Below are positions 26,612 to 43,451 of a stretch of DNA of 64,000 nt, in pieces. Origin of the DNA: Rhizobium sullae (GTDB taxonomy: Bacteria > Pseudomonadota > Alphaproteobacteria > Rhizobiales > Rhizobiaceae). The DNA lies in assembly GCF_900169785.1 (NCBI RefSeq), contig NZ_FWER01000025.1:1-64000 (forward strand), written 5' to 3'. The notes under the pieces were generated by a model that did no database searches, had not been told where the DNA came from, and saw only the letters and a list, made by a program, of their open reading frames with translations. A program made the position numbers and the translations under genes. Position 1 is the stretch's first letter; the number at the start of each line of letters is the position of its first letter.

Positions 26612-26783
26612 GAACAACGCGCGAAGTTCGTGGCGGCACCTCTGTGTCCGAGGTTGGCGATCGGACCTGATGATGGCGGAGGTCGCCTGACCGCTATAGT
26701 TAGTGGCCCTGGCTTCGACGCCGGAACGCTGAAGACTTAAGGACAGAAGTGGATTCGATGATTCACGAACGAGGAGTGATCTG
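26612..26783. other. Short intergenic region before a decayed antitoxin gene
   Basis: No gene is visible. In other genomes a toxin of the DUF6516/TumE type usually lies directly before an HVO_A0114-type gene, but I find no such reading frame here. Confidence 0.3.
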
Positions 26784-27037
26784 ATGACAGAACGAACGCT
26801 TCGAGTGGGGGTGGCATCGTATGAGCAGATGAAGGCTCGGACTATGACAATCGCGCGGGGAGAGCAGAAGCCTGACAGGGACGATCCAACCATGTGGTTC
26901 ACATCGCTCGAAAGTTTCGCCAAGATTCTCTCGGCGCGGAACCATGCGTTGCTCGACCTGATCGCGCAGCGCAAGCCCGGGTCCCTGGCCGAACTCGAAA
27001 CCCTCTCGGGCCGCCCAAGTCCGACCTCTCGCGAACG

Positions 27038-27532
27038 CTAAAGACAATGGCGCGGTACGGGTTGGTGGAACTTGAAGGCGGAGATCACGGGCGTATCGTA
27101 CCTCGCGTGCCTACGATCATCGGAACCGCGCGCTTCCTCCCCGTCCTTCATTGCGGGGAGGAAGCGGGCGCCCTTTGGGGTCTCGACATACTGCCGGACA
27201 ATGTCCAAGGGCGCGCCGCCGCATGACGCGGCGAAATATGACGGCGACCACAACACACCCTTGAGAGTGTTGACGCGCTTCGACAGCTGGACGGTCGCAG
27301 GATAGTTGACCAGCAGATGGAGGTGATCGTCTTCGCCGTTGCACGACACGCATTCTGCATCGACGTCGGACCATAGCTTCGCGAAGATGCGCGACAGGTC
27401 GGCCACGGCGCGTTCCGACAGCACATCCCGCCTGTACCTGGTGACGAAGACCAAATGAACGTGCAACGCAAAGACACGATGTCGTCCCGTGCGATAATAT
27501 TGCAAATGCCGCCGGCCGATTGCTACAACCAT
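27038..27532 (-). CDS. tnpA: IS200/IS605-family transposase TnpA (Y1 HUH), with internal deletion
   Basis: The protein has the family N-terminus YRTGRHRVFALHVHLVFVTR, the HUH motif in EDDHLHLLVNYP and the nucleophile tyrosine in DIVRQYVE. The usual segment of about 20 residues between LKGV and LWSPSY, which contains a basic SSRMIRK-like stretch, is missing while the frame is kept (NTLKGVLWSPSYFAASCGG). The reading frame continues through the left-end hairpin and stops only in the interrupted target gene at 27038. The start is either ATG 27532 or TTG 27505. Enzyme identity is clear; activity is doubtful. Confidence 0.75.
   Translation of the reverse strand: MVVAIGRRHLQYYRTGRHRVFALHVHLVFVTRYRRDVLSERAVADLSRIFAKLWSDVDAECVSCNGEDDHLHLLVNYPATVQLSKRVNTLKGVLWSPSYFAASCGGAPLDIVRQYVETPKGARFLPAMKDGEEARGSDDRRHARYDTPVISAFKFHQPVPRHCL
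27131..27166. repeat. Left-end hairpin of the IS605 element
   Basis: A perfect 13-base stem (27131-27143 with 27154-27166) and a ten-base loop. In this family the hairpin near each end is the TnpA recognition site. It also falls inside the tnpA reading frame, which runs through it into flanking DNA. Confidence 0.7.
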
Positions 27533-27535
27533 CGC

Positions 27536-28730
27536 ATGCCGAACCGCGCGTACAAGTACAGGATTTACGCTGACCCGCAGACGGCGGAATTCTTCGCCCG
27601 CTGCTGCGGCGTCGTGCGCCTCGTCTACAACATCGCCCTTGAGCAGCGATCCTCCTTCTGGCGGCAGTTCAGGAAGGCCGAGGGAAAGACCATCTCCTAC
27701 CCGTCCCAGGCGCGCGAGCTGACGGCGATCCGCGCCGAGGTGCTGTGGGTGGCGGAATGCCCGATCGACGCGCAGCAACAGGCGCTGCGTGACCTTGACC
27801 AGGCGTTCCGGAATTTCTTTGCCGGACGGGCGGGGTACCCGAAGCCGCGGCGCAAGTTCGTCAACGACGCGTTGCGCTTCCCGTCGAGCCGCGTCGGCGC
27901 AATCGCGGTGCTGAACGCGAAGTGGGCGCGGGTGCGGCTCCCGAAAATCGGCGACGTCAAGTTCCGCTACACCCGCCCGATCAGGGGCGCGGTCGGCAAC
28001 GTCACGGTCGTGCGCGCGGCCAACGGATGGCACATCGTCTTTTCCTGCGCGTTCGAACACGAGACGCCGGCAAACGACAATCCGCCCGTCGGTATCGACC
28101 GCGGCATCGTCAACACCTTCGCGCTCTCCACCGGCGAGATGCACGCGATGCCGCCGTCCAACCTCGACGACCGCCATAAGCAGTGGCAGCGGACAGCCGC
28201 ACGGCGCAAGAGCCGTTCGAAGCGCCAGGCCAAGGCGAGACGCCACGCCGCGCGGATTGCGGCGAAGGCGGCGCGCCAACGGCTGCACTGGCAACACGTG
28301 ACGACGACGCGCATCGCGCGGCGCTTCGGGACGGCCGTCCTCGAGGACCTGAAGATCAGGAACATGAGCGCCTCGGCGAAAGGGACCGTCGAGGAGCCGG
28401 GCAGGAACGTCGCCCAGAAGGCTGGCCTCAATCGCTCGATCCTCGCGGCGGCGTGGTACCGCTTCGAGCTGTTGCTGACCTACAAGCTTGCCTTCCTCGG
28501 CGGAACCGTCGTGAAGGTCGATCCGCGATACACGTCCGTGACCTGCTCAAAGTGTGGGTCGAGGGACAAGGCAAACCGCGAAAACCAAGCGAAGTTCCTC
28601 TGCCTCTCCTGCGGAACACGCAGACCACGCCGACGTCAACGCGGCGGTCAACATACTCCTGGCGGGAACACTGCCATCGGCGGCGTCGGAGACTTCCGGC
28701 GGGAGCCGAGGACTCGAAAGGGCGGCCTAA
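27536..28730 (+). pseudogene. tnpB: RNA-guided nuclease TnpB, frameshifted before the third RuvC motif
   Basis: TnpB uses a guide RNA from the element's right end to cut DNA. Here the first RuvC aspartate (PVGIDRGIVNTF), the glutamate (VLEDLKIRNMS) and the zinc finger (CSKCG, CLSCG) are intact. An extra A at 28615/28616 shifts the frame just after CLSCG. In the correct frame the sequence goes on as HADHADVNAAVNILLAG, containing the essential third aspartate, and ends at TAA 28728-28730. The product therefore lacks RuvC-III and should be catalytically dead. The start ATG 27536 lies three bases from the tnpA start on the other strand. Confidence 0.85.
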
Positions 28731-28809
28731 AGCCGCCCCTGAAAATCCCTTCCTTCGGCGGGGAAGATGTTAAATCACCCTCGATCTGGCGGTGCTTTCG
28801 CGCGCCTCC

Positions 28810-29280
28810 TGATCGTGGCGAAGGCGGCGAGGAAATACTCCATCGTCAGTTAGGTGTACGGCGCTCCGGGCGTCGGGCTGCTTGACCCGGAGGAAACGAA
28901 GCCCGCGCCACGCAGAGTTCGTCGCTGTTGATTTCCTTGCCAAAAATCTTCGACAGCTCGCCACGGGTCATCGGCTGGAGATAGCCCACCAGCACCATCG
29001 CCTCGACTTCGGACAGCGCCGCGGCGGCTGACCGGGTCGGGTGCCGAAGAAGCGCGGAGCGCCTCGGCAAAACGCATGCGGGTGCGATGCTGCCAGCCGC
29101 TGGCGACGGAGACTAGCTCGTAGGGACAATCACGCAGGTCTTCCACGAGGTCGTCGACCAAAAGGTCGCTGCTGCAGGCTCGTCCCACACCCCCGCCGTT
29201 GTCTTCCGCGTCACCGGTTCCGTTGAGGCGAAGATCACCGCCTCGACCGTTCGAGTTTCAACCCCAGCCGGAACGCGCAT
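28810..29280 (-). pseudogene. scpB: ScpB-like segregation/condensation protein gene, multiply frameshifted
   Basis: On the minus strand the pieces, in order but in different frames, read TRTVEAVIFASTEPVTR, then SSDLLVDDLVEDLRDCPYEL, then EAMVLVGYLQPMTRGELSKI, then LRGAGFVSSGSSSPTPGAPY and finally LTMEYFLAAFATI. These are the winged-helix segments of ScpB, a kleisin-associated subunit of SMC condensin, in the accessory-plasmid form seen in rhizobia. At least three frameshifts are needed. The original start, ATG 29280, still has an AGGTGAGA ribosome binding site. It is non-functional as it stands. Confidence 0.7.
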
Positions 29281-29362
29281 TCTCACCTCGCTTTGATGCG
29301 CACCCTTCCATAAGTTCACTCGGGCGTTATGCTGCACCAAGACACCAAGCATGAGGCCTTTC

Positions 29363-29632
29363 ATGACGAAGCAACATCAGAGCGACTTGCGGGAGCGGAT
29401 GACGATCCTTGGCAATCTTGATGCGGCCTCCTTCGTTCCCTGGATCCGACGCCATGCCGCCAAGCTCGGACTCGCACAGGCTATATCTCATACCGGCCCC
29501 AACCGGATCGAACTCGAGGTCGCGGGGCCGGTGGAACTGATCGACATGATGGAGATGGGATGCTCTCTCGGGCCCATCGATGTCTGGGTCGAGACGATAC
29601 ACCGCGCACCGGTTGACCGCGGAACCGACTAG
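29363..29632 (+). CDS. Small acylphosphatase-like protein
   Basis: An 89-residue protein with the size and fold pattern of acylphosphatases (FVPWIRRHAAKLGLAQAISH, then NRIELEVAGPVELIDMMEMG). The standard catalytic arginine loop (G-x-V-Q-G-V-x-F-R) is not recognisable, so it may bind rather than hydrolyse acyl phosphates. I chose ATG 29363 over 29351. It stands alone between the ScpB relic and the Rieske operon, on the same strand as the latter but 167 bases before it. Confidence 0.55.
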   Translation: MTKQHQSDLRERMTILGNLDAASFVPWIRRHAAKLGLAQAISHTGPNRIELEVAGPVELIDMMEMGCSLGPIDVWVETIHRAPVDRGTD

Positions 29633-29635
29633 CCT

Positions 29636-29799
29636 CGACTGGCTCTTTGGGGCTGCTCGCGCGTCTCCTGCCTTTTATTTAATCAATATTGCCAATGCAG
29701 AATAATTATGCAAACGTGAGAGCACTGGGAGGCTACCGTCGACGTCAACGCCGGAGCTTTCGCCACGCAGGCCATTGATTTTATATAGAAAGCCGATTG
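29636..29799 (+). promoter_or_regulatory. AT-rich leader before the purine-type operon
   Basis: A 164-base gap whose centre (29680-29712) is notably AT-rich and contains TTGCCA and TAATTATG elements. It is the only place for the promoter of the nine-gene operon that follows. No palindrome of the LacI kind was found, and no regulator lies next to it on this side. Confidence 0.4.
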
Positions 29800-30453
29800 A
29801 TGCTGTCAGATACGACGGGCTCTTGGACGCCAGTCGCCCTTTCTGCGGATTTGCCAGCAGGAGCCGTTATGCCGGCACGGACGCCAGCCGGGCCGATTGC
29901 CCTCTGGCGAAGTCAGTCGGGGCGCGTGGCAGCCTCGAAAGACCGATGTCCGCATCGCGGCATGCGCTTGTCTTACGGCTTCGTGCGTGGCGAGGCCCTT
30001 TCCTGCATCTATCATGGCTGGAGCTATAGCCGGACCGGAAACTGCCTGCGCATCCCCGCCCATCCGGGCCTCACGCCGCCGGAAACGATCCGCGTAGAAA
30101 CGCAGCAGGCCGAAGAGTCCGACGGGATCATCTGGGTTGCGGCGGGACAACTCACGGCCGAGCCCCCGAGGCTTGAAGGTCTCGCTCCATTGCGCTCCCT
30201 GGTGGCCCATGCCGGCGTCGCGGCGGTCGAGGCCGCGGCAAGCGCGAAGGCAGGTCCCGAGGGACTTGTCTGGCAGCCGCAGAATTCGCGGACAATCCGG
30301 CTGTTGCTCGCTCCGCAAGACGACGACCAGACGCTGATCCATGTTCTGCTCGACAGTGACAGCAGCCTGTCCGCGCGCATCGCCGCGTCACGGACCGCCG
30401 AGACGTTGCGGCGGATGGCCGAGGAGCTTCAGACGAAAAGGATCGCGTCATGA
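29800..30453 (+). CDS. Stand-alone Rieske [2Fe-2S] protein
   Basis: A 217-residue protein whose N-terminal half is a Rieske domain: Cys50-Pro-His52 (CPHRG) and Cys69-x-x-His72 (CIYHGW) bind the cluster. The C-terminal 100 residues have no iron ligands of an oxygenase. It would shuttle electrons to the catalytic subunit encoded next, with which it overlaps by four bases (ATGA). In most ring-hydroxylating oxygenases both domains are in one chain. Here they are separate, as if a Rieske oxygenase had been split. No reductase gene is present nearby. ATG 29800 is preferred over TTG 29797. Confidence 0.85.
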   Translation: MLSDTTGSWTPVALSADLPAGAVMPARTPAGPIALWRSQSGRVAASKDRCPHRGMRLSYGFVRGEALSCIYHGWSYSRTGNCLRIPAHPGLTPPETIRVETQQAEESDGIIWVAAGQLTAEPPRLEGLAPLRSLVAHAGVAAVEAAASAKAGPEGLVWQPQNSRTIRLLLAPQDDDQTLIHVLLDSDSSLSARIAASRTAETLRRMAEELQTKRIAS

Positions 30454-31295
30454 GGCAAAACGCGATGATCGATGAGTGGTATCCGGTCGGTCTCTTCAGT
30501 CAGCTCGACATCAAGGGGCGCAGGACGGCCCTGATGGGAGAGCCCATCGATGTGGGTCTCGACCAGCAAGGCGACGCCAAGGTGACATCCAGCAATGGAC
30601 GCACGCTGCCCGTTTGCGTCCGCTACGACCACGTCTGGTCCTCTCTCGGCAAACCCCGGAAGGATCTTTTTCCGATCCCCGAGGCTGATCAGCCCGGCCG
30701 GCGGTTTGTCGAGGTTGGCGTGGTTCGCGTGCGCTGCTCACCGCTGCGTGCCGTCGAGAACTTTCTCGACATCGCGCATTTTCCCTTTGTACACACCGAC
30801 ATCCTGGGTGCAGAGCCGCACACCGAGGTGCAGAACTACAAGGTCGAAATCCGGGAGGACGAGGATGAGGTATGGGCAACGCAGGTGAAATTCTACCAGC
30901 CGCAGGCTGCCAAGTCGGCAAGCGGCGGCATCACGACGGAATACATGTACCGCGTGCCGGCACCGACCTGCTCCGTTCTTTACAAGACCTGCCCGCCCCG
31001 TCCCGGTGAATGGGACGTCATCACGCTGTTCGTCCAGCCACTTGCCGAAGACTTGTGCGACGTCTGGCCGTGGATGGCACTGTTCGACGATGTCACGCCG
31101 ATGACCGACCTGATCCAGTTTCAGCAGACGATCTTCCTGCAGGACCGGTCGATCCTCGAAAACCAGATTCCGCGGCTCCTGCCGCTTGATCCCGGGATGG
31201 AAATTCCAACGAGAGCCGACCTGACTTCGATCGCCTACCGACGCTGGCTGAAACGCCACAGCTATACATACGGCGCACAGCTGGTGGCGCAATGA
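30450..31295 (+). CDS. Rieske-less oxygenase catalytic subunit (NdmC-like)
   Basis: A 281-residue protein with the mononuclear iron site of Rieske oxygenases: Asn104, Asp107, His110 and His115 (ENFLDIAHFPFVH) and Asp232 in LQDRSILENQ. The N-terminal 70 residues look like a Rieske domain from which the two cluster motifs have been lost (DEWYPVGLFSQL, then VCVRYDHVWSSLGKP). It therefore depends on an external Rieske protein, presumably the one just upstream. From the literature, NdmC of the caffeine N7-demethylase also lacks its own cluster and works with a Rieske-containing partner and a GST-like protein. The substrate is inferred from context to be a purine. Confidence 0.8.
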   Translation: MRQNAMIDEWYPVGLFSQLDIKGRRTALMGEPIDVGLDQQGDAKVTSSNGRTLPVCVRYDHVWSSLGKPRKDLFPIPEADQPGRRFVEVGVVRVRCSPLRAVENFLDIAHFPFVHTDILGAEPHTEVQNYKVEIREDEDEVWATQVKFYQPQAAKSASGGITTEYMYRVPAPTCSVLYKTCPPRPGEWDVITLFVQPLAEDLCDVWPWMALFDDVTPMTDLIQFQQTIFLQDRSILENQIPRLLPLDPGMEIPTRADLTSIAYRRWLKRHSYTYGAQLVAQ

Positions 31296-31951
31296 AGCTC
31301 TACGACTATGTCCTCTCGCCCAGTTGCTACAAAGTCCGTCTGATGGCGGCGCTGACGGGTGTGAAACTGGAATTGCGCCCGGTCGATTTTCACCCAGGCG
31401 CCGAGCATCGCGGCCCCGAACTCATGGCGCTTAATCCGGCGGGTTCCATCCCGATCCTCGAGGATGGGGATCTAATCCTTACCGAATCCGCCGCCATGCT
31501 CGTCTATCTCGCCACCAAGGTAGCGCCGGCGTGGCTCGGCAGCGGCACACCGGCGGAAACGGCCCGTGTCCAGCAGTGGCTTTCGTTCTCGCACCGGCTG
31601 ACCGTCAACCTCGGAGGGGCGCGCCTTCATGAAATGCTACTCCGCCCAGGGGACATAGACGCCCTCCGAACGCAGGGCATCGCGGCACTTCGCGAGCTGG
31701 AAGCCGGGCTGGTCGAACAGCGCCTGCGCGGCATGGGTTTCGTCGCGTCGAACCGGCCGACGGTTGCCGATATCGCCTGCTTTCCGTACGTCGCACTCGC
31801 GCCGGACGGCGGCATCCCGCTCGACCCCTATCCCACCATCAGGCTCTGGTCCCGGGCGATCCGCGGCCTCGAAAACTTCATCGAGATGCCCGGCATCCAC
31901 CGGCTGCACGAGCTGAAGCCCGAACCGCAAATCGAACCGGGCGAGGCGTGA
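31292..31951 (+). CDS. Glutathione S-transferase-like protein (NdmE-like partner)
   Basis: A 219-residue GST-fold protein. The N-terminal thioredoxin-like domain has SPSCYKVRLMAALTG, the NPAGSIPIL cis-proline and the ESAAMLVYLA motif; an all-helical domain follows. It overlaps the oxygenase subunit by four bases. GST-like NdmE is a structural partner in the Pseudomonas N7-demethylase complex, so here too it may be a subunit rather than a detoxifying transferase. Ordinary GST activity remains possible. Confidence 0.8.
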   Translation: MKLYDYVLSPSCYKVRLMAALTGVKLELRPVDFHPGAEHRGPELMALNPAGSIPILEDGDLILTESAAMLVYLATKVAPAWLGSGTPAETARVQQWLSFSHRLTVNLGGARLHEMLLRPGDIDALRTQGIAALRELEAGLVEQRLRGMGFVASNRPTVADIACFPYVALAPDGGIPLDPYPTIRLWSRAIRGLENFIEMPGIHRLHELKPEPQIEPGEA

Positions 31952-31952
31952 C

Positions 31953-33332
31953 GTGGCCGGCTATCTCTTGAAGAACTGCGCGGCGGTCATCGTCGACGAG
32001 GGCAAGGGCCCGAGCGTGCTTCGCAACGTCGACCTCCTGACGAACGGACCTGCAATCGCGACCATCGGCGAGGGCCTTTACAAAGGCGACCTGCCGGCCG
32101 GGACGATCGTAGAGGACGCCAGCGGCTGGTTCGTCTATCCGGGCCTTGTTAACACGCACCACCACTTCTTCCAGTGCTTCGTGCGCAACCGCGCCGATCT
32201 CGACTGGACGAAGCTCTCGGTTATCGAATGGCTCGACCGCATCTATCCGATCTTCTCGCGGCTGACTGAGGACTGCTTCTACCATGCCTCCGTCACAGCG
32301 ATGGCCGAGTTGATCAAGCATGGCTGCACCACGGCCTTCGACCACCAATACTGCTTCCCGCGCCACGCTGGCAAACGGCTGATCGATCGTCAATTCGAGG
32401 CTGCCGACCTTCTGGGCATGCGCTTTCATGCAGGCCGCGGCGGCAACACATTGCCGAAGTCGGAAGGCTCGACCATTCCGGACGTCATGCTGGAAACGAC
32501 GGACGAATTCATCGCCGATTGCGCGCGCCTGATTGACACCTATCACGATACCAACCCCTTCAGCATGCGCCAGGTCGTGGTCGCACCCTGCCAGCCGGTC
32601 AACTGCTACCGCGAGACCTTCGTGGAATCGGTCGCGCTGGCGCGTGATCGCGGCGTGCAGATGCATACCCACGTCGGCGAAGGCGAAAGCCCGGTCATCG
32701 AGAGCCGGCACGGCATGCGGACGGTGGATTACTGCGCGGAGCTCGGGTTTGCAGGCCCCGACACCTTTTACGCCCATTGCTGGGAGCTGACACACGACGA
32801 ACTGCGAAAGATGGCCGCAACCGGCACCGGTGTCGCCCACTGCCCCGAGCCGGTCTACCTGGTAGGCGCCGAGATTACGGACATTCCGGCGATGTCGGCC
32901 TTCGGTCTTCGACTGGGTCTCGGCTGCGACGGTGCTGCCTCGAACGACAATTCCAACCTCATCCACTGCATCCACTCCGCCTACATGCTGCAATGCCTGG
33001 TGGCATCGACGCGCGCCCATCCCATCCCGCCGCCGGTCGATTTCCTCAGCTATGCCACGACGGGCGGCGCGGGCCTCCTCGGCCGCCGCGACATCGGCAG
33101 GCTTGCTTCCGGCATGGCTGCCGACCTTTTTGCGATCGACACGCGACGCATGGACTACGTCGGCACGCGGCACGATCCGCTGAGCCTGATTGCCAAGGTC
33201 GGCATCGGTACGCCGACCGACATGACCATGATCAACGGCCGCATCGTCTGGGCAAAGGGTGAATTCGTCGGGCTCGACGAAGCGCGACTGTTCGCCGAAG
33301 CCGAGGCTGCTCTTACGACAGTGGAATTCTAA
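31953..33332 (+). CDS. 8-oxoguanine deaminase-type amidohydrolase (ATZ/TRZ family)
   Basis: A 459-residue metal-dependent deaminase starting with GTG, one base after the GST stop. Zinc or iron ligands are His69 and His71 (NTHHHF), His in QMHTHVGEG, His in YAHCWELT and Asp in LGCDGAASND. The overall sequence is closest to 8-oxoguanine deaminase, which turns 8-oxoguanine into urate. Related members act on guanine, isoxanthopterin or triazines. In an operon with a purine-type importer and an N-demethylase-like oxygenase, a modified guanine is the likely substrate. Confidence 0.82.
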   Translation: MAGYLLKNCAAVIVDEGKGPSVLRNVDLLTNGPAIATIGEGLYKGDLPAGTIVEDASGWFVYPGLVNTHHHFFQCFVRNRADLDWTKLSVIEWLDRIYPIFSRLTEDCFYHASVTAMAELIKHGCTTAFDHQYCFPRHAGKRLIDRQFEAADLLGMRFHAGRGGNTLPKSEGSTIPDVMLETTDEFIADCARLIDTYHDTNPFSMRQVVVAPCQPVNCYRETFVESVALARDRGVQMHTHVGEGESPVIESRHGMRTVDYCAELGFAGPDTFYAHCWELTHDELRKMAATGTGVAHCPEPVYLVGAEITDIPAMSAFGLRLGLGCDGAASNDNSNLIHCIHSAYMLQCLVASTRAHPIPPPVDFLSYATTGGAGLLGRRDIGRLASGMAADLFAIDTRRMDYVGTRHDPLSLIAKVGIGTPTDMTMINGRIVWAKGEFVGLDEARLFAEAEAALTTVEF

Positions 33333-33354
33333 AACACAAAACAAGGGAACTGAC

Positions 33355-34455
33355 ATGCTGAAAAACCTGACCCGCAGAACACTGATGAAGGGCGTTGCCG
33401 CCTCCGGCCTCGCCGGCGCGCTTGGCGGCCGGTCCGCAATAGCAGCCGACGAGCCGCTCGGTATTTCCCTCGTGATCCCCTCGCCGGTCGGCGACGTCGG
33501 CTGGGGCCACGCGCTGGCCGCCGGCCTCGAACCCGTCAAGGCCGCCTACGGCGACAAAGTGAAGATCACTGTCATCGAGAACATTCCGGAAGGCCCGGAC
33601 GCCGACCGCATCATGAACAAGACGGTCGCCGACGGAAACAAACTCCTGATCGCCGGCTCCTTCGGCTATCAGAACGGCGCCCTGCAGATTGCCCGCCGGA
33701 ATCCGGCGGTCACCGTGCTGCATGCCTCCGGCTTCCAGGTAGCACCGAACTTCTCGCCCTTCGCCGCCAAGTATTTTCAGGGAACCTATCTGCTCGGCAT
33801 GGCTGCCGCCGCGCTCTCCAAGACCGGCAAGCTGGGCTCGGTCTCCGCCTTTGCCATTCCGGAGTTGATCACCTCCGTCAACGCCTTCACACTGGGCGCC
33901 CAGGCGGTGAAACCTGATATCGAGGTGTCGGTCGTCTGGGTGAACTCGTGGTTCGATCCGGCCAAGGAGCAGGAAGCTGCCAAGGCGCTGATCGCCCAGA
34001 AGTGCGACGTGATCTTCTCCAACGCGCAGGATACGCCGTCCGTCATCGCGGCCTGCGAGGAGGCCGGCGTCTATGCGTTCAACCTCAACTCGTCGATGAA
34101 GAAATACGCTCCGAAGACCTATCTCGGTTGCGTGGCGACGGACTGGTCGCCGTTCTTCAAGGCCTCGGTCGATGCCCATGTCGCCGGCACGTTCAAGGGC
34201 GGCAATGCCTTCCTCGGCGTCGCAGACAAGGTCGTCGCTGTTGTCGACTGGAATGCGGATATTCCGGCCGACCTCATGACCAAGATCAAGGAGATCGAGG
34301 TGAAGATCGCTAACGGCAGCTTCTCTCCCTTCACCGGCCCGATCACCAAGGCAGACGGCAGCGAAGGGGCCGCCTCCGGTGCAACGCTCGCCGATAGCGA
34401 GGTCGTCTCCATGGACTGGCACGTCAAGGGCGTCATCACGCCTCTGCCGAAGTGA
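33355..34455 (+). CDS. BMP-family purine/nucleoside-binding protein
   Basis: A 366-residue secreted protein of the basic membrane protein (PnrA/NupN-like) family. The N-terminus has a Tat-like signal (NLTRRTLMKGVAASGLAG). The mature part has VIPSPVGDVGWGHALAAGLE, SFGYQNGALQIARRNP and SNAQDTPSVIAACEE, typical of the family that binds nucleosides or free purines. AAGGGA precedes ATG 33355. It is followed after three bases by its ATPase gene. Confidence 0.88.
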   Translation: MLKNLTRRTLMKGVAASGLAGALGGRSAIAADEPLGISLVIPSPVGDVGWGHALAAGLEPVKAAYGDKVKITVIENIPEGPDADRIMNKTVADGNKLLIAGSFGYQNGALQIARRNPAVTVLHASGFQVAPNFSPFAAKYFQGTYLLGMAAAALSKTGKLGSVSAFAIPELITSVNAFTLGAQAVKPDIEVSVVWVNSWFDPAKEQEAAKALIAQKCDVIFSNAQDTPSVIAACEEAGVYAFNLNSSMKKYAPKTYLGCVATDWSPFFKASVDAHVAGTFKGGNAFLGVADKVVAVVDWNADIPADLMTKIKEIEVKIANGSFSPFTGPITKADGSEGAASGATLADSEVVSMDWHVKGVITPLPK

Positions 34456-34458
34456 GCC

Positions 34459-35982
34459 ATGACCGTCCCGCTCCTGTCCCTCCGCGGCATTTCCAAGAGC
34501 TACGGCCAGATCCGGGCTAATCAGGCCATCGACCTGGACGTGGCGCCACAGTCGATCCATGCGATCCTCGGAGAAAACGGGGCGGGCAAATCGACGCTGA
34601 TGAAGCTGATCTACGGCGTCGAGCAACCGGACGACGGAACCGTCGTCTGGGAAGGAGAACCTTTGAGCTTTGCCTCCCCCGCGGAGGCAAGGCGCAAAGG
34701 CGTCGGCATGGTCTTCCAGCATTTCTCGCTGTTCGAGACCCTGACGGTGGTGGAGAACACGCAACTGGTCGTGCCGGGCCGGAAGGCCGATCTTATTGAG
34801 CGCATCCGAATGCTCGGGCGCGACTTCGGCCTCGAAGTCGATCCCGCCGCTCATGTGCACACGCTTTCCGTCGGCGAGCGGCAGCGGGTGGAGATCATCC
34901 GTTGCCTGCTGACAAACCCGAAGCTGCTGATCCTCGATGAGCCAACCTCCGTCCTGCCGCCGCAATCGGTAAACAAGCTCTTCGACACGTTGCGTCGCTT
35001 GCGCGACGGCGGCGTCTCCATTGTCTTCATCTCCCATAAACTGGAGGAGATCCGCGCGATCTGCGACCGGGCGACCATCCTGCGCGGTGGACGCGTCACG
35101 GGACATGTGGACCCGCGCGAACATGATGCCCATGACCTTGCCCGCATGATGATCGGCCGTGACATGCCGGAACCTATGCCGGCGCTGCCCCTGTCCGGCG
35201 GGGAAAAGCGGCTTGAAATTATCGGCCTCGATTATCAGCCGGACGACCCCTTTGCCGTGCCACTCTCCACCGTAAGCCTTACGGTTCGTTCGGGCGAAAT
35301 CCTCGGCATCGCCGGAATTTCCGGCAACGGGCAAAGCGAGCTTGCCTCGCTGATATCCGGCGAATTGGTCCTGCCGCGAGAACAGCGCGACCGCATCTAC
35401 ATGATGGGAAAGGACGTGGGCACGCTCAACGCGGCTGCCCGCCGGCGGCTTGGATTTGCCTTCGTGCCCGAAGACCGGCTCGGGCGCGGCGCCGTACCGG
35501 AAATGTCACTCGCCCTCAACAGCCTGCTGACAGCGCATCCGCTCGACCTTCTCAGGCATGGTCTGGTCGACGAAACGAAGGCAATGGCATTCGCCCGCGA
35601 GTGCATCCGCCAGTACGATGTGCGCACGTCCGGACCGGAGGCGGAAGCCGGCTCGCTCTCTGGCGGCAATCTGCAGAAGTTCATCGTCGGCCGCGAGATC
35701 ATGCTCTCTCCGAAACTGCTGTTCGTGGCGCAGCCGACCTGGGGCGTCGACATCGGAGCCGCATCCGCCGTGCGCAGGCGGCTCGTCGCGCTGCGCAACC
35801 AAGGCATGGCAATCCTTGTCATTTCCGAGGAGATCGAAGAGCTTTTCGAACTCTGTGATTTTATTCAGGTGTTGCACCACGGCACCCTGAGCCCGGCTCT
35901 CGTCGCGCGGGAGACGCAGCCGGAGGACATCGGCCGATATATGATCGGTGCACATTCTTCGCAAGAGAAGGCCCTGGCATGA
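34459..35982 (+). CDS. Nucleoside/purine-type ABC transporter, duplicated ATP-binding protein
   Basis: A 507-residue protein with two ABC domains, as in RbsA-like and NupO-like ATPases. The first has GENGAGKST, a signature LSVGERQRVEIIRCL and LLILDEPTSVLPP. The second has the degenerate loop GISGNGQSELA and LSGGNLQKFIVGREI. It pairs with BMP-type binding proteins and two unlike permeases. It overlaps the next gene by four bases. Confidence 0.9.
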   Translation: MTVPLLSLRGISKSYGQIRANQAIDLDVAPQSIHAILGENGAGKSTLMKLIYGVEQPDDGTVVWEGEPLSFASPAEARRKGVGMVFQHFSLFETLTVVENTQLVVPGRKADLIERIRMLGRDFGLEVDPAAHVHTLSVGERQRVEIIRCLLTNPKLLILDEPTSVLPPQSVNKLFDTLRRLRDGGVSIVFISHKLEEIRAICDRATILRGGRVTGHVDPREHDAHDLARMMIGRDMPEPMPALPLSGGEKRLEIIGLDYQPDDPFAVPLSTVSLTVRSGEILGIAGISGNGQSELASLISGELVLPREQRDRIYMMGKDVGTLNAAARRRLGFAFVPEDRLGRGAVPEMSLALNSLLTAHPLDLLRHGLVDETKAMAFARECIRQYDVRTSGPEAEAGSLSGGNLQKFIVGREIMLSPKLLFVAQPTWGVDIGAASAVRRRLVALRNQGMAILVISEEIEELFELCDFIQVLHHGTLSPALVARETQPEDIGRYMIGAHSSQEKALA

Positions 35983-37079
35983 GCGCTTCATTTGGGGCTT
36001 TCCTTCCCACCCTTGTCCGTCGCGAACGCGGCTCGCTTGCAGCAACCTTGCTTGCGCCTCCCGTCGCTTTGGCGGTGGCCACCATTCTCAATCTCGGGCT
36101 TTACGTGCTGATGGGCCGCGATCCGGCCGCCGTCGTCTATGCGATGCTTCTCGAACCCTTCCTCTCTTGGGCGTCGTTCTCGGAAGTGCTGCTGAAGGCA
36201 GGGCCCCTTCTCCTCATCGCACAGGGCCTGGCAATTGGCTTTCGCGCGAAGGTCTTCAACATCGGCGCCGAGGGCCAGTTCATTCTGGGCGCGATTTTCG
36301 CCTCGGCCATCCCCGTATGGTTTCCGCAGGCAACAGGTCAGTGGATCTGGCCGGTGATGCTGCTCCTTGGAGCAGCGGGTGGTGCGCTATGGGCTTCACT
36401 TACCGCTTTCTGGCGCGTCAGGCTCAACGCGAACGAGATCCTCGTTTCCCTGATGCTGAGCCTCGTTGCCGCACAGTTGCTCAACTACCTGCTCCTAGGC
36501 CCCTGGAAGGACCCCAACGGCTTCAACTTTCCTCAGTCTGTGATGTTCCAATATGACGCGATGGTGCCGTTGCTGATTCCTGGCACGCGCGTCAATGTCT
36601 CGCTGCTGCTCACGATCGTCCTGTCGATCGCGGCATGGATCTTCATGCAGAAGAGCTTCATCGGCTACAAGCTAAAGGTCGGGGGCCTCGCCCCCCGTGC
36701 TGCCGGCTACGCCGGCTTCAATCAAGGGTGGGCTATCTGGCTTTGCCTTCTCATCGGCGGATGCGCCGCAGGGCTCGCTGGCGCGGCCGAAGTTGCCGGT
36801 CCCCTCGGCCAGCTGCAGCGCTCGATTTCGACCGGCTATGGCTATGCCGCCATTATCGTAGCCTATCTCGGCGGCCTGCATCCGATCGGCATCGTATTCT
36901 CGGCGCTCATCATGGCGGCCCTCTCCATCGGGGGGGACAATGCCATGGTGTCAGCAAACTTGCCGATCGCCGCGGTCCGCGTCTTTCAGGGCAGTCTCCT
37001 TGCCGCCTACCTCATCGCCGTCGCCTTCGTGCGGTACCGTCTCGAATGGCGTCGCTTAGCCTACCGGAGCCAGCCATGA
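35979..37079 (+). CDS. Nucleoside/purine-type ABC transporter permease 1
   Basis: A 366-residue membrane protein of the BPD_transp_2 family with about nine to ten spans. The GFRAKVFNIGAEGQFILGAI segment and VRLNANEILVSLMLS are diagnostic of permeases paired with BMP-type binding proteins. It overlaps both neighbours by four bases (ATGA), so expression is coupled. Confidence 0.9.
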   Translation: MSASFGAFLPTLVRRERGSLAATLLAPPVALAVATILNLGLYVLMGRDPAAVVYAMLLEPFLSWASFSEVLLKAGPLLLIAQGLAIGFRAKVFNIGAEGQFILGAIFASAIPVWFPQATGQWIWPVMLLLGAAGGALWASLTAFWRVRLNANEILVSLMLSLVAAQLLNYLLLGPWKDPNGFNFPQSVMFQYDAMVPLLIPGTRVNVSLLLTIVLSIAAWIFMQKSFIGYKLKVGGLAPRAAGYAGFNQGWAIWLCLLIGGCAAGLAGAAEVAGPLGQLQRSISTGYGYAAIIVAYLGGLHPIGIVFSALIMAALSIGGDNAMVSANLPIAAVRVFQGSLLAAYLIAVAFVRYRLEWRRLAYRSQP

Positions 37080-37987
37080 ACGCCATCGAATTCATTCTTG
37101 CCGGCATGCTCGCGGCCGCGACACCCTTTCTGCTTGCGGCGCTCGGCGAGCTGGTGGTCGAGCGTGCCGGCGTGCTGAACCTCGGGGTAGAGGGATTGAT
37201 GGCGTTCGGCGCGGTGCTTGCCTTCATCATCGTCTATCACGGCGGCGGGCATCTTTTGGGCTTCGTCGCAGCCGGCCTCGGCAGCGCCGCTCTTTCGCTT
37301 GTTTTCGCCGTCATCGCAATCGGGTTTCGGGCGAACCAGGTGGCGACAGGCCTTGCGATCGGCATCCTCGGTCAAGGTCTTTCGGCACTTTTCGGCAAGA
37401 CTTATGAAAGCCTCACGGTCAAGGGGCTTCCAAAGCTTGCCTTTCCATGGCTTTCCGACATCCCGATCTTCGGCCGCCTTTTCATCCAGGACGCCGTCGT
37501 ATGGCTTTCCCTTGCCGCAACCTTCGCCATCTGGGCGATGTTTGCTCATACGAAGACCGGTCTTGTCGTCCGGGCCATCGGCGAGAACCCCAAAGCCGCC
37601 CACGCCATTGGCTATTCGGTCATTGCCGTCCGCTTCGCCGCCGCAGCATTTGGCGGAGCGATGGCAGGCTTTGCCGGCGCCTATGCGGCGGTGGTTTACA
37701 CGCCGCTTTGGGCGGACGGGATGATCGCCGGGCGTGGCTGGATCGCAATCGCACTCGTCGTCTTCGGGACGTGGCTCACGGGCCGGATCTTCTTGGGGGC
37801 GTGCCTCTTCGGCGCCGTCTCCCTGATGGGCCTCGCAGCCCAGGCGACCGGACTGGACGTCCCATCACAACTGCTTGCGAGCCTGCCCTATCTCGTTACG
37901 ATCGTCGTTCTGGGCATCATTTCGGCGGACCGCCGTCTGCTGAAGCTGAACGGCGTCGCCTCGCTTGGCGAACCCTTCGAACACTAA
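37076..37987 (+). CDS. Nucleoside/purine-type ABC transporter permease 2
   Basis: A 303-residue membrane protein, second permease of the pair. The GELVVERAGVLNLGVEGLMA segment near residue 25 and GFRANQVATGLAIGILGQG are typical. ATG 37076 overlaps the first permease by four bases; an open frame reaching back to 36635 is only antiphase coding. It ends the purine-type operon. An IS110-end-like sequence follows directly. Confidence 0.9.
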   Translation: MNAIEFILAGMLAAATPFLLAALGELVVERAGVLNLGVEGLMAFGAVLAFIIVYHGGGHLLGFVAAGLGSAALSLVFAVIAIGFRANQVATGLAIGILGQGLSALFGKTYESLTVKGLPKLAFPWLSDIPIFGRLFIQDAVVWLSLAATFAIWAMFAHTKTGLVVRAIGENPKAAHAIGYSVIAVRFAAAAFGGAMAGFAGAYAAVVYTPLWADGMIAGRGWIAIALVVFGTWLTGRIFLGACLFGAVSLMGLAAQATGLDVPSQLLASLPYLVTIVVLGIISADRRLLKLNGVASLGEPFEH

Positions 37988-38022
37988 GGGGCGGGCCGCT
38001 CACACCACGGTCATAACGTCTA
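37984..38022 (+). repeat. IS110-end-like sequence, copy 1
   Basis: The sequence CTAAGGGGCGGGCCG, then CTCACACCACGGTCATAACG, then TCTA recurs at 50023-50063 with one mismatch and small gaps. The second copy lies directly upstream of an IS110 transposase start. Copy 1 begins at the stop codon of the purine-type permease gene, so it is a footprint of a lost or solo element end. Confidence 0.55.
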
Positions 38023-38075
38023 GCCCCAACGTGACGCGGGTTTACGGCACCGCCTTCAGGTCGCGCATGTCATCT

Positions 38076-39146
38076 TCATCTCCTCGGAGCGGCCATGCTT
38101 TCTCGCAGGATAAGCCTGCTGCGGACCACGGTGCGCGTCTCCGGCTCGTTGTCCGAATCCCCGATGGCGCCAAGTAGTCGAGCCACTGCAGCTTGGCCCA
38201 TCTCTTCCACAGGCTGTTCGATCGTTGAAAGCGGCGGCGAGCAGAATTCGCAGACCGGTGAGCCATCGAACGAAACGACGGACAGATCACCGGGAATGTT
38301 CAGGCCGGTCCGCTGCACGCGACTGATGAACGAAATAGCCATATCGTCGCTCGTCGCAATCACCGCTGTCGGCTTATCCGTCAACCGCGCGAAGTCGGCG
38401 GCCGCCTGAACGCCGATCTCGAAGCCCTCCTGGTAATCGAGACTACCCCCTGATCGCGAAACCGCCTGCTCGGAAAGTCCCGCGCCACGAAGCGCCTCAA
38501 GCGCGCCGCCGTAACGTTCGACGTCGTGGTAGTTGCCTTCCGGGCCGGCAATATAGAGAAAGCGCCTATGGCCCAGTCTGATCAGCTCCGCCGTCACCTC
38601 CCGCACCGCTTCCCGGTCGTTCGTCACGATACTCGGCATTCCGGCATCGCTCATATCGAGCAGCATGGAAACGATCGGCAGGCCGGCATTGGCGAGAGAT
38701 CGCCCGTCGACCTCTGGAAGTTTCGATGACAGGATGATCGCTCCGCGAACGGTGCCGCCGAAGGCAAGATCGAGAATGTGCCTTTCCGACTCCTCGTCGC
38801 GATCCAGGTTTGCGATCATCAGATTGTAACCGTTCTGGATTAGAGCCTTGTTGATGCTTTGCAGAACCTGCGGAATGATTTGGGATGCGCCATAGTAGAG
38901 CGACCCCGGCAGGATGATCATGATAATGTTGGACTTGCCGACCCTCAGGCTGCGGGCCATGGCATTTGGCGTATAGCCCAGCTGCTTGGCGGCGGCATCG
39001 ATTTTGACGCGCGTCTTCTCGTTCACGCGGCCGGGATTTGCAAGCGCGCGGCTGACGGTCGAGATCGCTACCCCTGCCAAGCGAGCGACATCCGCCATCA
39101 AGGGCCCTGATTGCTCCTCCACGAGCACATCTTTGTTTTTTTTCAC
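38076..39146 (-). CDS. LacI-family transcriptional regulator
   Basis: A 356-residue regulator with the helix-turn-helix LMADVARLAGVAISTVSRAL and a full effector-binding domain (SIVTNDREAVREVTAELIRLGHRR region). I chose GTG 39146 because GGAAGGAAG precedes it at good distance; the start at 39233 has no such site. It is divergent from the sugar operon beginning at 39360. Two matching operators lie between them, so it most likely represses that operon and itself. The sensed sugar is not known. Confidence 0.87.
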   Translation of the reverse strand: MKKNKDVLVEEQSGPLMADVARLAGVAISTVSRALANPGRVNEKTRVKIDAAAKQLGYTPNAMARSLRVGKSNIIMIILPGSLYYGASQIIPQVLQSINKALIQNGYNLMIANLDRDEESERHILDLAFGGTVRGAIILSSKLPEVDGRSLANAGLPIVSMLLDMSDAGMPSIVTNDREAVREVTAELIRLGHRRFLYIAGPEGNYHDVERYGGALEALRGAGLSEQAVSRSGGSLDYQEGFEIGVQAAADFARLTDKPTAVIATSDDMAISFISRVQRTGLNIPGDLSVVSFDGSPVCEFCSPPLSTIEQPVEEMGQAAVARLLGAIGDSDNEPETRTVVRSRLILRESMAAPRR

Positions 39147-39203
39147 TTTTCTACTTCCTTCCCGATGGCTGCTGCGCCGGATGCTACGGCAGTCGCGGCC
39201 GCT

Positions 39204-39278
39204 TAGCAAACGATTGCCAAAAATCACTTGCATAAAAAAACGACTTGTCTATTATCTAGGCATGGCAAACGATTGCCA
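39204..39278. promoter_or_regulatory. Promoter flanked by two LacI-type operators
   Basis: TAGCAAACGATTGCCA (39204-39219) and TGGCAAACGATTGCCA (39263-39278) share the core GCAAACGATTGCC. Their centres are 59 bases apart. Between them lies a promoter: TTGCAT (39228-39233), 16 bases, TATTAT (39250-39255), directed to the isomerase operon. The second operator would overlap the transcription start. The layout allows repression by looping or by direct blockage. Confidence 0.7.
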
Positions 39279-39359
39279 ATCGCAGTGCATTGAAATCATT
39301 ATGGTTATTCGTTGCGGATGTCGGCGCCGCAATCGATCCTCTATGCCCGGAGAAGCGTC

Positions 39360-40313
39360 ATGACCTCAACCGAACGGCTTCGCTTTGGCGTCGATCTCGT
39401 CACCTTTTTCCACCCCGATTTCTGGGATGTGAAGGATTATGACGGCATCATCGCTCTGTCCCGCAACGAGCCGCGCGTTTTCTGGGACAAAATTCTCGAC
39501 GCCGTCCAGGCCTCCGGCGTCACGGGCGTCGAACTGACCTTCTCGCCGTTCAACTGGCAGGATGCGACGAAGACCTATGGCTCGGTCGAAGCTTTCGCCG
39601 CGGAGCTTTCGAGACGCGGGCTGACGCTGGCGAGCGGCTTTTTCGCCGAACTCGAAGCGGCTGGTGATTTCACGGAGGCTGACGCACAGGCCGCCATCAT
39701 CGAGAAGGCCGAAAAATACGCCGAATTCCTCAAAGCCTGCGGCAGTGACATCATGGTCATCGGCGCACCGTTGCGCCAGACGCTCGGCGCCCAGCCGGTG
39801 CGATTTTATGATTTCGAACAGGCGCGCAAGATCGCCGATTTCCTCAATCGCCTCGGCGCCACTCTCTACGCAAAGGGCATTCGGCTGGCGCTCCACACCG
39901 AGGCTCACTCGATCTTTGCTGCCGCGCGCGACGTCGACCTGCTGATGCTGCTGACGGACCCGGCCTATGTGCACATGTGCCCGGACACGGCGCACATCAT
40001 TGTTGCCGGTTCCGATCCTCTGCAGGTCGTCGAGCGTCATCATGAGCGCGTCATTATCGCCCATTGGAAGGATGCCCTCGGGCCTATGCCGGCAGACACA
40101 CCGATCGATGAGCATATCCATGATCGCCACCGTCCCTATTTCTGCGGCTTCGGACTCGGTCGCGTCGACTGGCCAGGCTGGACCAGGCTCCTGCGTGATC
40201 GCGGCTACGAAGGCTGGGCCATTCTCGAGCTCGACGCCGCCGCCGATCCGCTCAGTGACATCGCAAATGGGCTCAAGCTCGTACGGCAGGCACTTTTGCC
40301 GATCTATCGCTGA
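39360..40313 (+). CDS. Sugar phosphate isomerase/epimerase-type TIM-barrel protein
   Basis: A 317-residue AP endonuclease 2-type TIM barrel. Metal-site motifs include GVELTFSPF, LALHTEAHS, HMCPDTAHI, IIAHWKDA and ILELDA. CGGAGAAG lies before ATG 39360; the frame is open back to 39312 but has no better start. It is first in an operon with a CUT1 importer and a GMC oxidoreductase. Pairing of such barrels with sugar oxidases is typical of pathways that oxidise and then isomerise or cleave a keto sugar. Precise chemistry is unknown. Confidence 0.8.
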   Translation: MTSTERLRFGVDLVTFFHPDFWDVKDYDGIIALSRNEPRVFWDKILDAVQASGVTGVELTFSPFNWQDATKTYGSVEAFAAELSRRGLTLASGFFAELEAAGDFTEADAQAAIIEKAEKYAEFLKACGSDIMVIGAPLRQTLGAQPVRFYDFEQARKIADFLNRLGATLYAKGIRLALHTEAHSIFAAARDVDLLMLLTDPAYVHMCPDTAHIIVAGSDPLQVVERHHERVIIAHWKDALGPMPADTPIDEHIHDRHRPYFCGFGLGRVDWPGWTRLLRDRGYEGWAILELDAAADPLSDIANGLKLVRQALLPIYR

Positions 40314-40371
40314 TTTCCATGACCCGAAACCAATGGCCCCGCCAAGAGGGCTTTCTTGAAGAGGTGGAACG

Positions 40372-41604
40372 ATGAAGACCGTAATGAAACTGTTACTGGT
40401 GGGAGCCGCGCTCTCAGCAGCCGTCTCCTCGGCCCATGCCGAAGACAAACCGAATGCCGAAGTGATGACCTCCTGGACGTCCGGCGGCGAAGCGGCAGCT
40501 CTGAACGTCATCAAGCAGGAATTCGAAAAGCGCGGCGGGGTCTGGAAGGACTCTTCCATCGCCGGCTTCGGCGCTGCCGATGCCGCCTTCCAGAACCGCC
40601 TGGTCGCCGGCGATCCGCCGACCGCCAAACAGGCAGTGATCGGCCTCGCCAATGCCGATTTCGTCAATCAGGGTCTCCTGAGCCCGATCGACGATGTGGC
40701 AAAAGCCGGCAAATGGACGGACGCTCTGCCAAAATCGATCGCCGATCTCGTCTCCTACAACGGTCAGGTCTATCTCGCACCCACCGGCGCTCACGGCGAA
40801 AGCTGGGTGTTCTATTCCAAGGAGGCCTTCGCCAAGGCGGGCGTGAGCGAGGAGCCCAAGAGCTGGGACGAATTCTTCGCGGCCCTCGACAAGCTCAAGG
40901 CTGCCGGCGTTCAGCCGGTCGCCTGGGGCGGCCAGTCCTGGCAGGAGACCAAAGTCTTCAATATGATCCTGCTCACCCAGGTGGGCATTGACGGCTTCCT
41001 CAAGATCTATGTCGACAAGGACAAGGGCGACGCCTCCACCGAAGGCGTGAAGAAGACACTCGATATTCTCGGCAAGCTGCGTGCCTATGTCGATCAGGGC
41101 GCACCGGGCCGCAACTGGAACGACGCCACCGCCATGGTCATCACCGGCAAGGCCGGCGTACAGTTCATGGGCGACTGGGCCAAGGGCGAGTTCATCGCCG
41201 CCGGCAAGGAGCTTGGTAAAGACTACGGCTGCATGCTCGCGCCGCAGTCGCCGGGCATGGTCTATGTCGCCGACGCTTTCTCCTTCCCGAAGATTGCCGA
41301 CGCGACATCCCAGAAGGGCCAGACTTTGCTTGCCGAGGTAGCCATGGACCCCGCCGTGCAGATTGAGTTCTCGCTCAAGAAGGGTTCCGTGCCGATGCGC
41401 ACCGACGTCGACCAGTCCAAGCTCGACATCTGCGCGAAGAAGGGACTGGAGCTGATGAGCGCCGGCAAGATCGTGCCGGACCAGGCGCTGATCCTCTCGC
41501 CGCAACAGGCCGGCGCGCTCAACGACTTCGTCGATGAGTTCTGGACCAATCCTTCCGAGGATAGCACCTCTGGCGCCGAGAAGTTCTTCGCGATCTTCGA
41601 ATAG
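40372..41604 (+). CDS. CUT1-type sugar ABC transporter, periplasmic binding protein
   Basis: A 410-residue family 1 binding protein with a signal peptide ending SSAHA. Its sequence (VMTSWTSGGEAAALNVIKQE, then GVQFMGDWAKGEF) is of the glucose/mannose-binding type of Alphaproteobacteria. An AAGAGGTGGAACG ribosome binding site precedes the ATG. A hairpin follows its stop codon. Substrate is likely a hexose or small glycoside. Confidence 0.88.
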   Translation: MKTVMKLLLVGAALSAAVSSAHAEDKPNAEVMTSWTSGGEAAALNVIKQEFEKRGGVWKDSSIAGFGAADAAFQNRLVAGDPPTAKQAVIGLANADFVNQGLLSPIDDVAKAGKWTDALPKSIADLVSYNGQVYLAPTGAHGESWVFYSKEAFAKAGVSEEPKSWDEFFAALDKLKAAGVQPVAWGGQSWQETKVFNMILLTQVGIDGFLKIYVDKDKGDASTEGVKKTLDILGKLRAYVDQGAPGRNWNDATAMVITGKAGVQFMGDWAKGEFIAAGKELGKDYGCMLAPQSPGMVYVADAFSFPKIADATSQKGQTLLAEVAMDPAVQIEFSLKKGSVPMRTDVDQSKLDICAKKGLELMSAGKIVPDQALILSPQQAGALNDFVDEFWTNPSEDSTSGAEKFFAIFE

Positions 41605-41608
41605 GCCG

Positions 41609-41651
41609 TGCAGCAGGCCGATTGGAAAGAAGAACGCCGGTCGGCCCTGCA
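41609..41651 (+). promoter_or_regulatory. Intercistronic hairpin after the binding-protein gene
   Basis: TGCAG (41609-41613) and GGCCGA (41616-41621) pair with TCGGCC (41641-41646) and CTGCA (41647-41651), giving an 11-pair stem with a two-base bulge. It sits between the binding-protein and permease genes, as in two other importers of this window. Confidence 0.55.
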
Positions 41652-41675
41652 CATTCCGTTTGAGAAAGTTTGCTC

Positions 41676-43447: not shown

Positions 43448-43451
43448 TGCC

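Follow-up and report, generated by a model that had tools for sequence, protein, structure and literature searches.

What does an oxygenase do when its Rieske cluster and its catalytic iron are encoded by separate genes, followed by those for a deaminase and an importer? This question is raised by a locus of Rhizobium sullae on contig NZ_FWER01000025.1, of which a stretch of 64,000 nucleotides (the window) was analyzed with computational tools to establish gene content, conservation, folds, key residues, and relationships. Eight + strand genes (29800-37987) encode a Rieske protein (P0001), a catalytic subunit (P0002), a glutathione S-transferase (GST)-like subunit (P0003), a deaminase-type amidohydrolase (P0004), and an ATP-binding cassette (ABC) importer with a BMP-type binding protein (P0005). 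We read the system as a purine N-demethylase of the NdmCDE kind whose two complementary partners share the task of a single oxygenase subunit, and give this reading as a whole a probability of about 0.5.

All features named in an initial annotation of this DNA lie where it had placed them. The three oxygenase genes are joined by four-base overlaps (ATGA at both joints), and behind them come the deaminase-type gene and the four-gene BMP importer, for which coordinates, PF02608, and PF02653 agree. That gene set was incomplete, as a ninth, acylphosphatase-like gene lies upstream. The features are as follows.

29363..29632, + strand: degenerate acylphosphatase-fold protein of ~89 amino acids (putative start 29363)
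29689..29714, no strand: conserved intergenic box TTGCCAATGC...ATGCAAA, from alignment (putative operator or promoter)
29800..30453, + strand: P0001, Rieske subunit with a vestigial catalytic domain (PF00355, AlphaFold2 (AF2) model)
30450..31295, + strand: P0002, NdmC-like catalytic subunit with the Rieske cluster-binding part deleted (PF19112, hhalign)
31292..31951, + strand: P0003, NdmE-like GST-fold subunit (PF02798)
31953..33332, + strand: P0004, amidohydrolase related to 8-oxoguanine deaminase (PRK08203, below cut-off)
33355..34455, + strand: P0005, AtzT-like BMP-type binding protein (PF02608; AtzT 6pi5, 272 bits)
34459..35982, + strand: ABC importer ATPase (domain scans)
35979..37079, + strand: ABC importer permease 1 (PF02653)
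37076..37987, + strand: ABC importer permease 2 (PF02653, scan begun at 37073; ATGA overlap)

A single base separates the P0003 and P0004 genes, and the last two importer joints are again four-base overlaps. For P0001 the start is ATG 29800, with an alternative TTG (29797) one codon upstream.

A Proposed Division of One Subunit over Two Proteins

P0001 is a free protein of 218 amino acids with an intact 2Cys-2His Rieske site and, in its predicted model, a two-domain fold (AF2, predicted local distance difference test (pLDDT) 93.9). Its ligands Cys51, His53, Cys70, and His73 are invariant in 57 aligned sequences; they are the residues that the initial annotation had numbered 50/52/69/72 from ATG 29800. 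The label "Rieske-only" given there had to be abandoned, since residues 2-217 of the model align with full oxygenase subunits: GxtA (Z 19.2 over 215 residues, root-mean-square deviation 3.0), dicamba monooxygenase (Z 18.6), and NdmA (Z 17.7). We therefore read P0001 as a whole subunit with an intact Rieske domain, whose final 100 residues resemble a catalytic domain that has shrunk and is devoid of iron ligands. The sequence match to NdmA-type oxygenases ends at residue 120, and the C-terminus has no NxxDxxHxxxxH motif, the 2-His-1-Asp iron site being absent.

P0002 is the counterpart. As previously proposed, it has no Rieske ligands and keeps the iron ligands His110, His115, and Asp232. Together with the bridging Asp107, these are identical in 26/26 aligned sequences and in all rows of the tree set (58 from systems with a free Rieske protein, 22 from systems with the carrier fused to a reductase as in NdmD, and 6 full-length oxygenases). 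In the hhalign comparison, P0002 covers nearly the full NdmA-type profile, and a gap falls where the Rieske cluster would be bound; what we take to be the positions of the NdmA "QL" mutant align with Gln225 and Phe229. P0001 and P0002 are complementary: one keeps the Rieske cluster and the other the catalytic iron.

The catalytic remnants of free carriers resemble those of fused (NdmD-type) ones, for which hhalign gives E 1.6e-9 at 96% probability. Against the catalytic subunit, the NdmD-type remnants match with E 3.4e-6 (88%) and all remnants pooled with E 0.00022 (45%). Most simply, this would mean that a subunit was duplicated and that each copy lost the half kept by the other; the duplication itself is our inference. 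PMC10380055 gives a 3:3:3 stoichiometry for NdmCDE and, for NdmA/NdmB, a cluster-to-iron distance of 12.1 Å between subunits versus 44.7 Å within one, with electrons thought to pass between neighboring subunits. These data fit a split subunit. Reciprocal degeneration would also explain why NdmC cannot work alone, and it would recast the "extra Rieske domain" of NdmD as a degenerate oxygenase subunit.

Conservation and Spread

A profile scan of genome contigs, based on an alignment of 26 homologues, gave at least 529 confirmed loci; the counts below use the best 80, part of which are cut by contig ends, and one survey of neighboring genes covered frames of at least 100 amino acids. Loci are denoted by L and genomes by G. 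Beside the catalytic subunit, the free Rieske gene and the GST gene occur in 80/80 loci each, the BMP protein in 75/80, and a close deaminase in 71/80. The grouping described initially is borne out: all eight genes stand together in 68/80 loci, so their grouping is not due to chance. According to record titles, these loci belong mainly to Rhizobiales and Rhodobacterales and in part to marine samples; the arrangement occurs widely, in many soil and marine bacteria. For the catalytic subunit, the best plasmid match is 98.6% identical and comes from Rhizobium sullae. PMC4408171 places ndmCDE homologues mostly in Sinorhizobium and Mesorhizobium and notes their function as unknown.

More distant clusters contain the same parts in shuffled order. 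The Rhizobium tumorigenes cluster has its Rieske and GST genes running in one direction and those for the importer, catalytic subunit, and guanine deaminase in the other, and in L128/L129 and L189 a single Rieske-GST-acylphosphatase-like module adjoins two catalytic subunits. Four further loci (L153, L154, L155, and L156) have unsplit Rieske oxygenases next to a related BMP importer (incomplete in L156), in L155 along with a guanine deaminase; these unsplit oxygenases possibly represent the ancestral state.

Kinship with NdmC, NdmD, and NdmE

Homologues on the P. putida Tik1 plasmid and on a Klebsiella plasmid stood in for the NdmCDE sequences of strain CBB5. P0002 is 43.4% identical to the P. 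putida-plasmid NdmC-type subunit and 45.8% to that of Klebsiella, P0001 is 32% identical over 211 amino acids (the vestigial part included) to an NdmD-type homologue, and P0003 is 39% identical over 205 amino acids to the Pseudomonas NdmE-type protein. The kinship of all three subunits with NdmC, the NdmD N-terminus, and NdmE, as originally proposed, is thereby supported; the part of that comparison that treated the Rieske carrier as merely a free domain is not.

According to the initial annotation, a firm place of the oxygenase among aromatic-acid demethylases unrelated to NdmC would have refuted its proposal. That outcome did not arise: P0002 falls together with the NdmC-type subunits and is separated from the six full-length oxygenases in the tree, a panel without VanA. 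These are quick trees with Shimodaira-Hasegawa-like approximate likelihood ratio test (SH-aLRT) values, and their deep forks are weak. The first comprised 29 of the 80 loci plus other panels. In the second, we dropped the long-branch rows L192_0, L039_0, L046_0, and L195_0, three loci with no Rieske gene nearby (L132, L134, and L135), and 16 near-duplicate or close rows; L136 was set by hand as positive for the acylphosphatase-like gene, which lies on another contig of that genome.

Three free-Rieske clusters (L295, L297, and L299) are nested among fused ones, on long branches and with unsure placement. This suggests that Rieske-reductase fusion or fission may have happened more than once.

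The Acylphosphatase-Like Ninth Protein

Homologues of the 29363-29632 product are encoded upstream of the Rieske gene in 78/80 loci (the exceptions being L060 and L089), and L040, L041, L045, and L046 contain one as well. The gene is under purifying selection, with a ratio of nonsynonymous to synonymous substitution rates (dN/dS) of 0.09-0.41 in nine comparisons. The AF2 model (pLDDT 92.5) finds acylphosphatases as its best Foldseek matches (E 6.8e-7), with an acylphosphatase match of Z 12.7 over 80 residues; the best rows other than acylphosphatases and HypF are a designed protein (Z 11.2) and homoserine dehydrogenase (Z 10.9). Pfam gives a weak acylphosphatase match in five of seven members, and in two of these five it is above cut-off. 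At the two positions that we take to be catalytic, Arg is found in 1/63 and Asn in 0/63 members, versus 8/8 and 8/8 ordinary acylphosphatases; what the members do conserve is a CSLGP-like motif. The ninth protein is apparently an inactive acylphosphatase relative.

Two genome samples show how far it follows the oxygenase. At an E below 1e-59, 46 of 297 genomes sampled from the order carry an NdmC-like gene; the Rieske protein is free in 31 of them and fused in 15. The acylphosphatase-like protein (at least 74.8 bits in 30 genomes, the next match being 55 bits) is present in 30/31 free-Rieske, 0/15 fused, and 0/251 other genomes; only G226 has a free Rieske protein without it. The gene was not seen near L152 (from G226) and L194. 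In a class-level sample of 385 genomes, eight have an NdmC-like gene (G000, G741, G803, G823, G824, G910, G932, and G947); among these, G823 is fused, and the protein occurs only in G000 and G932 (E 1e-13). It is tied to free-Rieske systems but not universal there, and was not seen in the fusions examined. We considered a strict pairing with the free Rieske protein, which is broken by the class sample, L152, and L194, and a repeated independent gain of the pairing, which we dropped because in the trees the protein is essentially the trait of one large clade.

Could the gene simply be a passenger that plays no part in the oxygenase? Its clade-bound distribution, its absence from several free-Rieske systems, its position upstream of the conserved intergenic box in the window, and its location on a different contig in G010 would all suit such a gene. 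On the other hand, it is kept by purifying selection, it lies within ~45 bases of the Rieske gene or overlaps it in L045, L127, L128, L137, and L189, and all 30 order-sample genomes with the protein also carry an NdmC-like gene, which makes a mere passenger improbable. We found no paper on acylphosphatase with Rieske oxygenases in a search that covered few subscription journals. As a partner of a Rieske oxygenase, such a degenerate protein of acylphosphatase fold would define a new accessory class.

Which Base May Be Imported and Deaminated

The nearest solved relative of P0005 is AtzT (6pi5, 272 bits). AtzT kept guanine through purification (dissociation constant 0.11 µM) and also bound 2-hydroxyatrazine and ammeline, guanine being the tightest ligand among the compounds tested (PMC6834077). 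With residue numbers shifted to suit all nine named positions, P0005 retains AtzT Ser97, Phe98, Glu165, Trp194, and Asn218, with Tyr45 changed to Trp, Asn220 to Asp, and Asn169 to Ser. The equivalent of Glu165 is kept in 75/75 close P0005 homologues.

The 8-oxoguanine-deaminase-type label that P0004 had received stands as far as its nearest family and the solved structure 7ww2 (labeled 8-oxoguanine deaminase) are concerned; the score of 368.6 bits against PRK08203 falls below the curated cut-off of 532. The score against guanine deaminase (TIGR02967) is 115 bits, also below the cut-off (375.4), and 3hpa (labeled amidohydrolase) is the other nearest solved structure. Another contig of the host encodes a guanine deaminase and a xanthine dehydrogenase, so that the housekeeping role does not have to fall to P0004. 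Taken together with its scores below both deaminase cut-offs, the separate guanine deaminase leads us to propose that P0004 may handle a modified guanine. Among ten deaminases scanned in related clusters, five pass the guanine deaminase cut-off (L127, L128, L045, L123, and L155), two pass that of 8-oxoguanine deaminase (L128 and L142), and three pass neither.

Plasmid-borne relatives also point to purines. On a Komagataeibacter kombucha plasmid, the free Rieske, NdmC-like, GST, and acylphosphatase-like genes are joined to NdmA-type (559 bits to NdmA) and NdmB-type (434 bits to NdmB, 418 to NdmA) oxygenases, and a VanB-type reductase is also present. On a Pseudomonas plasmid, the fused form has hpxO and a nucleobase symporter gene in its vicinity. 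The purine setting proposed at the outset is thus upheld by the AtzT-like importer, the guanine-type deaminases of related clusters, and the kombucha plasmid, and a purine is very probably the substrate. The importer and deaminase sequences favor a guanine-type base over a plain methylxanthine.

Some related arrangements are listed here for completeness. The conjugative kombucha-culture plasmid L046 (4005-9495) has two tandem Rieske/catalytic/GST modules, of which one has diverged; a single acylphosphatase-like gene and a single reductase gene lie in between. In L042 (5749-11278, Klebsiella plasmid), an NdmCDE-type set has as its neighbor an oxygenase that shares 54% identity with the NdmA-type protein of Komagataeibacter. 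The window itself contains fragments of a xanthine dehydrogenase-like molybdenum protein at 56843-58372 (58 bits, well below the XdhB cut-off).

Electron Supply

As noted in the initial annotation, no reductase is encoded near the operon. Dependence on one encoded elsewhere agrees with the genome's three NAD_binding_1 matches, all on other contigs. One of these proteins is beside a Rieske oxygenase, one match lies inside a fused protein, and the third adjoins genes that we presume to be dimethylamine-monooxygenase-like. A dedicated orphan reductase was considered and rejected, as all three candidates have other contexts. Across the 80 loci, none has a reductase above 100 bits on the NdmD/VanB profile, and one has a weak match above 40 bits. 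Free-Rieske clusters with such a reductase do exist, namely L046 (annotated PDR/VanB), L138, L152, and L195. Our working assumption is a shared reductase from elsewhere in the genome.

A Proposed Pathway and Its Alternatives

7-Methylguanine is released on the breakdown of RNA caps, tRNA, and rRNA. We infer a complex, an electron path, a substrate, and an order of steps as follows. The BMP importer would bring in a base of the guanine type; the likeliest is 7-methylguanine derived from RNA turnover, which P0004 would deaminate to 7-methylxanthine. The oxygenase complex would then strip the N7-methyl group as formaldehyde, and the resulting xanthine would pass to the housekeeping xanthine dehydrogenase. 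An external reductase would feed electrons into the P0001 Rieske cluster; from there they would cross the subunit interface by way of Asp107 and reach the P0002 iron. P0003 and the acylphosphatase-like protein are putative non-catalytic subunits for assembly or docking.

The choice of base follows from the N7 specificity of NdmC, which makes 7-methylguanine the best candidate: deaminating it first yields exactly the known substrate of NdmCDE, 7-methylxanthine (PMC4408171). N-demethylation is the probable reaction, and 7-methylguanine in particular has a chance somewhat short of even. No paper on 7-methylguanine with Rieske oxygenases was found in the same kind of search, again covering few subscription journals, which also yielded nothing on 7-methylguanine catabolism, on ndmA in Komagataeibacter, or on NdmC in Rhizobium. 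Rather doubtful in its entirety is the fullest version, i.e., a dedicated 7-methylguanine route with an opposite-half duplicated subunit, a borrowed reductase, and a pseudo-acylphosphatase, representing the original role of the caffeine N7-demethylase.

Several observations weigh against a purine N-demethylase built from a divided subunit. By phmmer, P0002 scores 81 bits with SxtDIOX (GxtA) and 76 with SxtT versus 27 with NdmA, with no NdmC entry listed, and the free remnants alone match the catalytic subunit with an hhalign E of only 0.0031 (probability 10%). A close deaminase is missing from 9/80 loci (from some because the contig stops there), which may mean that it is not obligatory. Outside the close group, the Glu165 equivalent is found in 4/10 distant free, 1/7 fused, and 0/3 unsplit importers, and that of Asn218 is often replaced too. 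Five of the seven free-Rieske genomes in the class sample are without the acylphosphatase-like protein (the G741 locus being cut by a contig end), so it is not required everywhere. No dedicated reductase is found among the three NAD_binding_1 candidates, and the closeness of P0004 to 8-oxoguanine deaminase is equally natural for oxidation at C8.

That C8 route is the main rival: in a molybdenum-independent guanine oxidation, the split oxygenase would hydroxylate guanine to 8-oxoguanine, which P0004 would convert to urate. Besides the affinity of P0004, it can draw on the above-cut-off 8-oxoguanine deaminases of L128 and L142, on the binding of guanine itself by AtzT (PMC6834077), and on HpxD, an annotated subunit of a molybdenum-cofactor-independent xanthine hydroxylase that is 26.7-30.7% identical over 62% of P0002. 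However, P0002 is far closer to the NdmC type than to HpxD, P0004 misses the 8-oxoguanine deaminase cut-off, guanine deaminase and xanthine dehydrogenase are already encoded elsewhere in the genome, and the guanine deaminases of related clusters would compete for the substrate; we deem this route unlikely. Given much the same weight is the N-demethylation of another methylpurine, either an imported methylxanthine or another N-methylguanine demethylated before deamination. The NdmA- and NdmB-type oxygenases of the kombucha plasmid speak for it, as does the 7-methylxanthine substrate of NdmCDE (PMC4408171), but a deaminase is useless for a xanthine, and Glu172 of P0005, invariant in 75/75 close importers, matches a guanine-contacting AtzT residue.

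Far less likely still is a non-purine substrate, such as a triazine or N-substituted heterocycle, handled by purine-like enzymes. AtzT does bind 2-hydroxyatrazine and ammeline, and relatives of P0004 include triazine hydrolases. Yet guanine was the tightest AtzT ligand of those tested (PMC6834077), and the occurrence in many Alphaproteobacteria, some marine, with recurring guanine-type deaminases fits a ubiquitous natural base. We retain the purine N-demethylase as the best reading; a natural substrate with its own importer and deaminase would make the role of the unassigned ndmCDE homologues testable.

Regulation and Flanking DNA

Between the acylphosphatase-like and Rieske genes, the 26-base block is conserved in the window and nine aligned loci and is unique in the window at three or fewer mismatches; judging from its conservation, it may be the operator of the operon. 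An Rfam scan of 26000-42000 gave no riboswitch match at the gathering threshold. Downstream, 38076-44534 encodes a repressor of the LacI type and, as a separate system, an ABC importer of sugar type together with a TIM-barrel protein. The LacI gene (38076-39233) was rejected as the regulator of the operon, having matches of 82-83% in only 2/80 loci. Just upstream of the cluster lies an IS200/IS605-type element (27148-28885), encoding a TnpB-like protein (27455-28885) with OrfB_IS605 and Cas12f1-like TNB domains and an apparent TnpA frame on the opposite strand.

Comparison with Known Systems

The individual parts each resemble a described family and depart from it. P0005 is identical to AtzT (6pi5) in 118 of the first 306 alignment columns and appears to keep its aromatic sandwich and most guanine contacts, differing by the replacements at Asn220 (Asp), Tyr45 (Trp), and Asn169 (Ser). 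P0004 aligns with 8-oxoguanine deaminase (PRK08203; 7ww2) over nearly its full length with the H-rich motifs kept, whereas its score is below cut-off and the loop HCPCSNMRL has become HCPEPVYLV. The ninth protein shares with acylphosphatase (PF00708) the predicted fold and a weak family match, but it has lost the catalytic Arg and Asn and has a CSLGP-type motif. HpxDE, the hypoxanthine/xanthine hydroxylase that works with an HpxE-type reductase to turn hypoxanthine into xanthine, is by annotation likewise an oxygenase of purine catabolism; P0002 is at most ~31% identical to it, in a weak match confined to the catalytic part.

The closest system is NdmCDE of P. putida CBB5, and an NdmCDE-like architecture is hardly in doubt. 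Both have a Rieske-less catalytic subunit, a separate Rieske carrier, and a GST-like subunit, all homologous, and the vestigial catalytic domain of P0001 is also visible in NdmD-type proteins. In contrast to NdmCDE, the Rieske carrier here is not fused to a reductase, an acylphosphatase-like protein is added, and the deaminase and AtzT-like importer are part of the operon. Since the defining Rieske-reductase fusion is absent, the system is a variant of NdmCDE rather than a strict member; the additions are the ninth, acylphosphatase-like protein, the reciprocal degeneration of P0001 and P0002, and the importer with its AtzT-like binding protein.

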